From: Burkholderiales bacterium
GTDB lineage: Bacteria > Pseudomonadota > Gammaproteobacteria > Burkholderiales > SG8-39
NCBI GenBank assembly: GCA_016649475.1
Contig: JAENXP010000150.1
Location: 1-6,303, forward strand
Direction of reading: 5' to 3'
Length of the DNA: 6,303 nucleotides
In this document: one piece after another, positions 3,952-6,303 of the stretch
How positions within the stretch are numbered: position 1 is the first letter of the stretch
Layout: each line of letters starts with the position of its first letter
Notes under the pieces: generated by a model
Database searches by the model: none
What the model was told of the DNA's origin: nothing
What the model saw: the letters and a program-made list of their open reading frames with translations, nothing else
Translations under genes and position numbers: made by a program

Positions 3952-4853
3952 TGAACGCTCCGGACCACAAGCAACTGGAAAAACAGCGCGTCGACGCGAA
4001 CAAGCTGGAGAAGCGCCTGTGCCGCCTCGCCGGGCAGGCGATCGCGGACTTCGACATGATAGGTGCGGGCGACCGCGTCATGGTCTGTCTCTCTGGCGGC
4101 AAGGACAGTTACGGCCTGCTCGACGTTCTGCTGAAACTGCGAGTGCGCGCGCCGATAGCGTTCGACATCGTCGCCGTCAATCTCGACCAGAAGCATCCGG
4201 GGTATCCCGAGCAGGTCCTCCCCGATTACCTGAAGTCGCTCGGCATCGAGTTCCTGATCGCCGAGCAGGACACCTATTCGACGGTCAAGCGCCTGATCCC
4301 GGAAGGCAAGACCATGTGCTCGCTGTGCTCGCGCCTGCGCCGCGGCGTGCTTTACCGACTGGCCGGGGAACTTGGTGCTACCAGGATCGCGCTTGGCCAT
4401 CATCGCGACGACATTCTGGAAACCTTTTTCCTGAACCTGTTCTTCGGCGGCAAGCTGAAGGCGATGCCGCCGAAACTGGGGTCGGACGACGGCAAGCATG
4501 TGGTGATACGCCCGCTCGCGTACGTGAAGGAAAAGGATCTTGCCCGTTACGCCGAGGTACGCGCCTTCCCCATCATTCCCTGTGACCTATGCGGTTCGCA
4601 GGACCAATTGCAGCGAAAGCAGGTGAAGCAACTGCTGCGTCAATGGGAAAGGGAATTCCCGGGCCGCGTGGAAACCATATTCAACAGCCTGCAGCGGGTC
4701 GCCCCGTCGCATCTGCTGGATCGCAAGCTGTTCGATTTTCCCGCTGTCACCGTCGCCGGCGTTGCCGCCGTGGATGGAGATAAAGCCTTTGATGCAGAAG
4801 ACTTTTCTGCCATGGCGACAGCGATGTTGAGGGTCGGGCCGGCGGCGGACTAG
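3951..4853 (+). CDS. ttcA: tRNA 2-thiocytidine(32) synthetase TtcA
   Basis: A 300-residue cytosolic enzyme that thiolates cytidine 32 in the anticodon loop of a subset of tRNAs, using ATP to activate the base and an Fe-S cluster in sulfur transfer. The PP-loop SGGKDS (48-53) binds ATP. C123 and C126 in CSLC, together with the CDLCGSQ motif (C211, C214), supply the conserved cysteines; E. coli TtcA uses two from the first motif and one from the second. GHHRDD (149-154) and [10 protein letters not shown] upstream of it are also typical. The C-terminal ~40 residues are less conserved. The ATG at 3951 is chosen because it overlaps the TGA of the duplicated reductase tail as TGATG, a common coupling geometry; a GTG one codon earlier (3948) is possible. 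No strong Shine-Dalgarno is seen, so translation may depend on coupling or on the upstream message. Confidence 0.95.
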
Positions 4854-4870
4854 ACTGATAATCAATCGTA

Positions 4871-4889
4871 GTTTGTCAAACTCAGTTTG
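4871..4889. promoter_or_regulatory. Operator-like repeats over the -35 region of the HTH-aminotransferase gene
   Basis: GTTTG-T-CAAAC (4871-4881) is an 11-bp inverted repeat with a single central base. A third half-site GTTTG follows at 4885-4889, forming AAAC-TCA-GTTT with the preceding arm. GTTTGTCA thus occurs twice with 14-bp spacing (4871 and 4885). The array covers the -35 hexamer and part of the spacer, which is where a repressor would block polymerase. The downstream ORF begins with a DNA-binding domain, so autoregulation is a natural inference. Confidence 0.45.
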
Positions 4890-4901
4890 TCATGCTAGAA
4901 T
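4873..4901 (+). promoter_or_regulatory. Sigma70-type promoter for the HTH-aminotransferase gene
   Basis: TTGTCA (4873-4878) and TAGAAT (4896-4901) each match the consensus at five of six positions and are exactly 17 bp apart. The predicted start of transcription, about 7 nt after the -10 box, coincides with the ATG at 4909. Translation from that ATG would then be leaderless. Translation from the ATG at 5170 would instead have a leader of about 260 nt. Confidence 0.65.
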
Positions 4902-4908
4902 TTTCGGC

Positions 4909-6303
4909 ATGAATTGCGCTGAGCGACTGGTATCGATTTTTGGCAGCCAGGCCGAGGTGGCCCGGCGCTTGCGCCTGGATCGTGCAGTCGTCAATAACTG
5001 GGTCAAGTCCGGTTATGTTCCGGCACGTTGGGCGATGGAAGTCGAGCACGCCACCGAGGGCAAGGTAGCCGCGGTCGAAGTGCTCAACGAAGCCAACGCC
5101 AAGAAACCGGTCCGAGTCAAATCGCGCCCCGACGATCTGTTCGGGTCGCATCTTCCAGGGAGTGACGCCATGAGTGATTTCGCACCAGCGAAACGGATTT
5201 TTTCCTTCCACCCGCCGCAGCGCACGCTGATGGGCCCGGGCCCGTCCGAAATCAACCCGCGCGTGATGGCCGCGATGGGCCTGCCGGCGATCGGCTATCT
5301 CGATCCGATCTTCGTCGAGATGATGGAGGAACTCAAGTCGCTCCTGCGTTACGCCTATCAGACCAAGAACGCGCTCACCTTCCCGATTTCCGGACCCGGC
5401 TCGGTCGGCATGGAATATTGCTTCGTCAACCTGGTTGCCCCCGGCGACAAAGTCATCGTATGCAGGAACGGCGTGTTCGGCGGGCGCATGATCGAGAACG
5501 TGGAGCGCGCCGGCGGTACGCCGATCATCGTCGAGGATGCATGGGGCGAGCCGGTCGATCCGCAGAAACTGGAAGACGCGCTGAAGAAGAACAAGGACGC
5601 GCGCCTGGTGGCTTTCGTCCATGCCGAGACCTCGACCGGGGTGCAGTCGGATGCGAAGACGCTGGTGGAGATTGCGCACAAGCACAAGGCGCTTGCGATC
5701 GTCGATGCCGTAACCTCTCTCGGCGGCACGCCGGTGCTGGTCGACGAATGGAAGATCGACGCGATTTACTCCGCCAGCCAGAAATGCCTGTCGTGCACGC
5801 CGGGCCTGTCGCCGGTGTCCTTCGGCGACCGCGTGGTCGAGCACGTCAAGGCGCGCAAGGACAAGATCCATTCGTGGTTCATGGACATGAACCTGCTGCT
5901 CGGCTATTGGGGCGCCAGCACCCGCACCTATCACCACACCGCGCCCACAAACAGCCTGTACGCCCTGCACGAAGCGCTGCTTATCCTGAAGGAAGAGGGC
6001 ATCGAGAACGCCTGGGCGCGACATACGCGCCATCACCTCGCGCTCAAGGCCGGCCTCGAAGCCATGGGCTTGAAGTTTCTGGTGAAGGAAGAGTCGCAGT
6101 TGCCGCAGATGAATGCGGTATACATTCCCGAGGCGGCCAAAACGCGCGAAGCCGAGGTGCGCAAGACCCTGCTCGAAGAATTCAACCTCGAGATCGGCGC
6201 CGGCCTGGGGCCCCTGGCCGGCCAGATATGGCGAATCGGCCTGATGGGCCACACTGCCAGGAAAGAGAACGTGGAACGATTACTCTCAGCCCTCAAAACA
6301 ATA
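4909..6303 (+). CDS. Fused ORF: YdaS/Cro-like HTH domain plus class V aminotransferase (3' end beyond window)
   Basis: One uninterrupted frame runs from the ATG at 4909 to the window edge (465 codons). Residues 1-60 look like a compact helix-turn-helix protein of the YdaS/Cro kind: MNCAERLVSIFGSQ, then the helix pair AEVARRLRL (15-23) and DRAVVNNWVKSG (24-35), then YVPARWAMEVEHATEGKV (36-53). A polar linker (about 62-87, including PDDLFGS) leads to M88, where the aminotransferase begins. The ATG has no Shine-Dalgarno but sits about 7 nt after a good -10 box. The linker frame keeps a GC-rich third position (about 15 of 23 codons). The alternative frame ending in TGA at 5163 is less biased (about 10 of 20). 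The protein could be a fused regulator-enzyme, or a separate HTH gene joined to its neighbour by an indel. The HTH assignment is by pattern recognition only. Confidence 0.6.
   Translation, partial: MNCAERLVSIFGSQAEVARRLRLDRAVVNNWVKSGYVPARWAMEVEHATEGKVAAVEVLNEANAKKPVRVKSRPDDLFGSHLPGSDAMSDFAPAKRIFSFHPPQRTLMGPGPSEINPRVMAAMGLPAIGYLDPIFVEMMEELKSLLRYAYQTKNALTFPISGPGSVGMEYCFVNLVAPGDKVIVCRNGVFGGRMIENVERAGGTPIIVEDAWGEPVDPQKLEDALKKNKDARLVAFVHAETSTGVQSDAKTLVEIAHKHKALAIVDAVTSLGGTPVLVDEWKIDAIYSASQKCLSCTPGLSPVSFGDRVVEHVKARKDKIHSWFMDMNLLLGYWGASTRTYHHTAPTNSLYALHEALLILKEEGIENAWARHTRHHLALKAGLEAMGLKFLVKEESQLPQMNAVYIPEAAKTREAEVRKTLLEEFNLEIGAGLGPLAGQIWRIGLMGHTARKENVERLLSALKTI
5157..5162 (+). promoter_or_regulatory. 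Strong internal ribosome binding site
   Basis: AGGGAG lies 7 nt before the ATG at 5170, inside the open frame that starts at 4909. It is as good as the site in front of the GST gene and marks a likely independent start for the aminotransferase domain. The TGA at 5163-5165 in another frame directly follows it, a layout common when one gene's stop abuts the next gene's ribosome binding site. Confidence 0.7.
5170..6303 (+). CDS. Class V aminotransferase, alanine/serine-glyoxylate type (internal start; 3' end beyond window)
   Basis: PLP-dependent fold-type I enzyme of the AGXT/serine-glyoxylate family, expected to move an amino group from serine or alanine to glyoxylate or pyruvate in the cytosol. 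Numbering from the ATG at 5170: the N-terminal GPGPSEINPRV block is near 20-30, SGPGSVGMEY near 75 holds the cofactor phosphate loop, and HAETSTG is at 151-157. D179 in VDAVTSLGG contacts the pyridine nitrogen. K205 in SASQKCL is the PLP Schiff-base lysine. TYHHTAPTN lies in the later part, and R355 in WRIGLMG binds the substrate carboxylate. The 378 codons present are close to the family's full length, so only a few C-terminal residues are likely missing. AGGGAG 7 nt upstream supports this start, although the frame continues upstream into an HTH domain. Exact donor and acceptor cannot be told from sequence. Confidence 0.85.
   Translation, partial: MSDFAPAKRIFSFHPPQRTLMGPGPSEINPRVMAAMGLPAIGYLDPIFVEMMEELKSLLRYAYQTKNALTFPISGPGSVGMEYCFVNLVAPGDKVIVCRNGVFGGRMIENVERAGGTPIIVEDAWGEPVDPQKLEDALKKNKDARLVAFVHAETSTGVQSDAKTLVEIAHKHKALAIVDAVTSLGGTPVLVDEWKIDAIYSASQKCLSCTPGLSPVSFGDRVVEHVKARKDKIHSWFMDMNLLLGYWGASTRTYHHTAPTNSLYALHEALLILKEEGIENAWARHTRHHLALKAGLEAMGLKFLVKEESQLPQMNAVYIPEAAKTREAEVRKTLLEEFNLEIGAGLGPLAGQIWRIGLMGHTARKENVERLLSALKTI

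Follow-up and report, generated by a model that had tools for sequence, protein, structure and literature searches.

A phage Cro-like DNA-binding domain fused to an AGXT-type aminotransferase in Burkholderiales, a probable autorepressing enzyme with two in-frame products

We discovered that a phage Cro-like helix-turn-helix (HTH) domain and a class V aminotransferase of the AGXT type are encoded by one gene in a Burkholderiales bacterium, and that the two form a genuine single-gene fusion. Such a gene occurs in many environmental members of the order. As a Cro-like DNA-binding domain is joined to the aminotransferase, autorepression by the enzyme is likely, and enzyme and regulator in one chain appears, from the sequence, to be the best reading. 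In our interpretation, which we consider probable, the gene encodes an autorepressing trigger enzyme with two in-frame products, a DNA-binding repressor-enzyme and a plain enzyme made from an internal start. The features on which this interpretation is built are collected in Table 1, in which positions refer to the window, the whole stretch of 6,303 nucleotides that was analysed.

Table 1. Coordinates of the fusion gene and of its predicted control elements in the window
Feature	Position	Strand	Details
HTH domain, Cro/YdaS-like	4909..5106	+	residues 1-66, five helices
Linker	5107..5169	+	residues 67-87; P67 and K71-S72-R73 invariant, rest variable (alignment columns)
AGXT-type class V aminotransferase	5170..6303	+	PF00266; 1vjo E 7.7e-100; 3' part cut by contig end
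PLP lysine codon	5782-5784	+	aligned to 1vjo, 4cbr
Asp codon	5704-5706	+	aligned to 1vjo, 4cbr
Arg codon	6232-6234	+	aligned to 1vjo, 4cbr
Internal Shine-Dalgarno-like GGGAGTGA	5158..5165	+	within linker codons; GGGAG-type
Internal start codon M88	5170..5172	+	predicted to yield enzyme alone; ATG conservation
Predicted sigma-70 promoter	4873..4901	+	-35 TTGTCA 4873-4878, 17-base spacer, TG then -10 TAGAAT 4896-4901
Predicted operator, 19-bp dyad	4874..4892	.	TGTCAAA-N5-TTTGNCA; between and over -35 and -10

Translation of the window gave a single frame that is open from the ATG at 4909 through the window end at 6303, and a Pfam profile search placed both PF15943 (YdaS) and PF00266 (class V aminotransferase) on this one chain. 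An earlier note on this DNA was thus correct that no stop codon separates the HTH from the aminotransferase. It had also described the aminotransferase as complete-looking, which does not hold: the contig ends at 6303 and, because relatives are about 505 aa long, some 40 C-terminal residues are missing from the window protein. The TGA at 5163 is out of frame and belongs to the conserved Shine-Dalgarno-like element. The same joined frame was found in 120/120 homologs among the best 120 of 8000 candidates, with lengths of 499-565 aa and each covering 100% of the query. Among 135 HTH-bearing loci, a number that includes duplicates and the window itself (97 differ from one another in their first 240 bases), the HTH frame continues into the enzyme in 133, and in the other two (L085, L139) the contig ends within the linker. 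No stop codon lies between HTH and enzyme in any of the 135, and a check of these loci for separate genes revealed no two-gene case, which bears out the true fusion that the note had considered.

The fusion was restricted to one order in our samples. In the order sample a strong HTH match was present in 50 of 399 genomes (51 matches, E up to 3.1e-36), belonging to six families, and 50 of the 51 matches sit in frames of at least 504 codons, the remaining one (G177) being cut by the end of its contig. As the next-best match reached just 1.4e-9, this HTH subfamily is met only in fused form in the order sample. In the class sample of 369 genomes, which includes some from this order, no genome but the window's own gave a strong HTH match; five others gave weak ones (E 6.7e-5 or worse) in frames of 74-320 codons. 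In the tree of the enzyme part the fusions make up a single clade: 88 of them lie on one side of a branch (support 97/96), and opposite them are six HTH-less orthologs, whose own branching order is unsure because of their long branches.

Some peculiarities of individual loci were observed. All of the best 80 of 162 named loci carry the title of a MAG or an environmental isolate. Nine loci (L046, L053, L083, L091, L094, L095, L098, L105 and L109) are titled Terriglobia, Bordetella parapertussis or Chitinophaga pinensis and group with betaproteobacterial fusions in the tree; these MAGs are probably mislabelled or mixed. One fusion copy (L181, genome G446) has a frame break within the enzyme part at residue 434. 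In L006/L037 (G013) an ATA occupies the position of the first ATG of the HTH, with no other ATG, GTG or TTG from there back to the upstream stop, indicating either a rare start codon or an assembly error.

The N-terminal domain is a phage Cro-like HTH of the YdaS/P22 Cro kind, other than the GntR domain of MocR, and has the Cro-type helical DNA-binding fold. PF15943 matched residues 6-59 above its cut-off (E 1.3e-10), scored 44.8 bits against a cut-off of 30 when the HTH was searched alone, and was present in 56/56 members. The P22_Cro model gave 28.2 bits, just below its cut-off of 30.2. Within the genus the HTH is under tighter constraint than the enzyme, with a pN/pS of 0.05 versus 0.14. 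Behind it, the K-S-R at residues 71-73 (5119-5127) is invariant in 88 members within an otherwise variable linker and is perhaps a DNA-contacting arm.

The enzyme part matched PF00266 at residues 137-433 (E 3.5e-21), far better than PF00155, which was also above its cut-off (E 4.2e-6). The closest solved structures are alanine-glyoxylate aminotransferases and their relatives, with 1vjo at E 7.7e-100. The lysine, aspartate and arginine that had been named before as K205, D179 and R355 in enzyme numbering are indeed kept: they correspond to K292, D266 and R442 of the fusion (codons at 5782, 5704 and 6232), are each invariant in 56 aligned members, and align with the PLP lysine, aspartate and arginine of 1vjo and 4cbr, which we take to be the catalytic residues. 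With this domain and these residues the enzyme is of the AGXT-type class V kind; none of the NCBIfam equivalog models reached its cut-off for the window protein, so 'AGXT-type' names the family and does not fix the substrate. A full-length structure model had a mean pLDDT of 63.7, too poor to judge the arrangement of HTH and enzyme.

An internal ATG and its Shine-Dalgarno sequence are kept by codon choice, and nearly all first starts are without a Shine-Dalgarno sequence. Of 88 full-length members, 86 have ATG as codon 88, amid variable neighbouring positions; one has GTG, and in one the start is displaced. Ahead of it, 75 of 96 loci have a GGAG core and 19 more a GGAA-type sequence, counts which include one locus (L135) that was scored at the wrong Met and has GTG as its true internal start. 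Pairing with the anti-Shine-Dalgarno at -5 kcal/mol or lower was found for 83/96 internal starts, 3/96 first starts and 28% of 1122 other in-frame Met codons, and the internal start pairs more strongly than the first start in 92/96 loci. Gly84, present in 80/88 members, is encoded by GGG or GGA in 99%; among 35 Gly columns the next highest share of codons ending in a purine is 55% and the median 10%, the others drifting to GGC or GGT. Within the genus the 15-codon window of codons 74-88 has the least synonymous change of 450 windows (0.057, mean 0.257), whereas in the whole family the linker window is not the lowest. The least synonymous change of the gene family-wide lies in codons 312-331.

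The six HTH-less orthologs start 7-16 codons ahead of a conserved PP[QVC]R motif, and the closest two (L024, L025) start 14 and 16 codons ahead of it, compared with 14 for M88. The start of the unfused gene therefore appears to be retained within the fusion. A scan of 4700-5300 for sigma-70 sites gave no + strand site for a separate enzyme promoter inside the HTH, and the window had no Rfam match at gathering scores.

Upstream of the gene we predicted a sigma-70 promoter with 10/12 consensus matches; the scan found 2 sites in 601 bases versus 0.2 expected, and in relatives the A of the -10 is conserved in 95/96 and its final T in 93/96. The mRNA would start at about 4907-4909, at or beside the ATG, and would be leaderless or nearly so. 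The predicted operator, which reads TTGTCAAA-N5-TTTGNCANG in the window, sits where polymerase binds, because TTGTCA is the -35 and TAGAAT, 17 bases on, is the -10. The dyad, whose conservation is in part that of the promoter hexamers, was found with at most two mismatches in 96 of 97 distinct loci and with three in the last when 300 bases upstream were searched, versus 0/739 control windows from the same loci at up to two mismatches and one at three. Three further fusion genomes that the initial search had missed have it at 3, 3 and 2 mismatches. It is absent upstream of the six HTH-less orthologs, where the best match has 5-7 mismatches, and it occurs at one place in the window against 0.01 expected.

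Columns beyond the hexamers are conserved as well, with A in 96/96 and 90/96 directly after TTGTCA, T in 91/96, A in 89/96 and the TTTG in 82-95 of 96. At the dyad axis 0.74 of the positions are complementary; none of the other axes tried exceeded 0.41. Imperfect right half-sites are frequent, with A, T or C at position 17, and covariation between the half-sites is weak (one variable pair was matched by 68/2000 shuffles and three others were not above shuffles). On the minus strand a weaker promoter-like site (9/12) at 4865-4893 overlaps the dyad. In four loci (L065, L071, L050, L060) perfect or near-perfect inverted repeats were seen by eye between the promoter and the first ATG, such as GAATTTGCCGGC...GCCGGCAAATTC in L065; each may be a hairpin or a second site.

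Operator-like sites were also searched for genome-wide in 60 relatives, 34 of which carry the fusion, at up to one mismatch, with hand-counting and with matches of the dyad on both strands counted once. The window's own genome has a single site, at the fusion gene, which makes autoregulation the economical reading. In 29 of the 34 fusion genomes a site with up to one mismatch lies at the gene, and the other five (G005, G019, G124, G420, G423) carry a weaker form. The fusion genomes had 13 other sites versus 7 matches of a reversed control pattern, and the 26 genomes without the fusion had 27 sites versus 16 for the reversed pattern. No second conserved target was recognised in the 60 relatives and the own genome.

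In the window the gene comes after the tRNA 2-thiocytidine synthetase TtcA and a pteridine reductase, and a Methyltransf_28 protein is encoded on the opposite strand. Neighbours in relatives were called as the longest ORFs, a crude procedure by which antisense frames were taken over ttcA in the window itself, and the counts are indicative: a ttcA-like gene is upstream in 47/87 loci with neighbours called, and metF-like (17), MgtE-like (16), ahcY-like (12) and metK-like (9) genes are downstream, mostly on the opposite strand. Given this orientation, and subject to the crude gene calling, the fusion is probably a single-gene unit. A convergent metF-ahcY-metK cluster (methyl cycle) lies downstream in L066, L068, L095, L096, L103 and others, which puts a gene of possible serine/glycine metabolism beside a methyl-cycle cluster.

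Taken together, the probable autorepressing enzyme might work as follows. The HTH would bind the dyad over its own promoter and block RNA polymerase, and the gene would be repressed. The first start, read weakly from a leaderless or short-leader mRNA, would give few full-length subunits of about 55 kDa, and the internal start, read strongly, would give most of the enzyme as a form of about 45 kDa without the HTH. With a weak first start and a strong internal start, the repressor-bearing subunits would be a minority. AGXT-type enzymes are dimers; a dimer could carry one or two HTH domains onto the half-sites of the dyad, and the promoter would close as the enzyme accumulates. As the least certain step, PLP or substrate in the active site may shift the affinity for DNA, and the enzyme level would then track demand. 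More tentatively, it is possible that a glyoxylate aminotransferase gene in Burkholderiales captured a phage Cro domain together with a Cro-type operator once, giving a one-gene feedback loop. Few DNA-binding subunits would come from a leaderless or Shine-Dalgarno-less start and many plain ones from the internal Shine-Dalgarno, and mixed dimers and active-site occupancy would set repression. Aminotransferase-based transcription factors would then have originated a second time, independently and with catalysis kept.

An autorepressor-enzyme with the full-length product alone, in which the start of the ancestral, unfused gene survives as a relic in the form of the internal ATG and Shine-Dalgarno, is an unlikely alternative to two products. 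The signals could be inherited, because HTH-less orthologs begin at about the position of M88, and the synonymous constraint on the linker is not extreme family-wide. However, relic signals should have decayed at such divergence, which counts against this explanation, and the purine-ending Gly84 codon has been kept while other Gly columns drifted; moreover, 93/96 first starts are without a Shine-Dalgarno sequence. We consider it quite improbable that the protein is a MocR-like sensor acting on other genes or an activator of its own gene. The aminotransferase domains of MocR proteins sense ligands (PMC5320631), and the weaker opposite-strand promoter-like site over the dyad would suit such a role, but the genome searches recognised no second target, a single site is present in the own genome, and a dyad over -35 and -10 is in the position of a repressor.

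To an HTH that does not bind DNA now and is just a structural or oligomerisation arm of the enzyme we assign a very small probability. HTH-like domains do occur in some enzymes, among them methylphosphonate synthase, a weak match here; against this stand the very low pN/pS of the HTH and a promoter dyad that tracks it, being present at 96/97 fusion loci and absent from the six HTH-less orthologs. A merging of two genes by sequencing or assembly error is practically negligible. The source genome is unfinished (864 contigs, 83% complete), yet the identical joined frame recurs in all of the best 120 homologs and in loci of genomes from six families, and an assembly artefact or indel was rejected for this reason.

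If the autorepressing enzyme with two products is the right reading, an aminotransferase would have become a regulator independently of MocR, with its catalytic residues retained, and one gene would offer a compact example of how two in-frame starts set the ratio of repressor to enzyme. With the small, well-defined operator, one could ask by experiment whether a DNA switch can be driven by the catalytic state of a fold-type I PLP enzyme. Additionally, a phage-type repressor domain would have been drawn into ordinary metabolism, in organisms whose best 80 named records are all MAGs or environmental isolates by title.

The earlier note had compared the protein with MocR regulators. Both parts do come from other families, as the note stated, and the likeness is functional only. 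MocR/GabR proteins likewise carry an N-terminal HTH and a fold-type I PLP domain in a single chain, but theirs are a GntR winged helix and an aspartate aminotransferase type, whereas the fusion has a Cro/YdaS HTH and a domain that matches class V (AGXT type) best, with a weaker match to PF00155, a class I aminotransferase model. At a threshold of E 0.001 the window protein gave no match to a GntR family, nor does one appear in the family lists of the 56 members, and membership of MocR/GabR was rejected because the N-terminal GntR winged helix is missing. The aminotransferase domain of MocR acts as a ligand sensor, and MocR operators often include direct repeats (PMC5320631); the fusion has a single predicted dyad.

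The fusion resembles phage Cro (Xfaso 1, N15, P22) and YdaS in domain fold and sequence and in a palindromic operator over a promoter, which is predicted here and described for YdaS in PMC8630535. It differs from them in that its HTH is joined to an enzyme, outside any lysogeny switch, and belongs to a subfamily met only fused in the order sample. With the alanine/serine-glyoxylate aminotransferases (1vjo, 4cbr, PucG 3isl) it shares the class V domain and the catalytic residues, and the matching solved chains (352-416 residues) begin at the enzyme domain, without the HTH of the fusion. In the open-licence PMC literature we found no report of a class V aminotransferase that carries a Cro/YdaS HTH.

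By analogy, an autoregulating trigger enzyme such as BirA may be a closer functional model than MocR. Read from its sequence, the fusion has an intact catalytic domain joined to a DNA-binding domain, as trigger enzymes do. PMC4016012 and PMC6978683 describe BirA as having an N-terminal HTH and binding inverted repeats as a dimer, and present group II biotin protein ligases (BirA) and PutA as fusions of a DNA-binding and a catalytic domain in which the enzyme is a transcriptional repressor; the fusion is alike in this, with repression predicted. It differs from BirA and PutA in that its enzyme and its HTH family are unrelated to theirs, in that its predicted target is its own promoter alone, and in that an internal start would yield an enzyme without the HTH.
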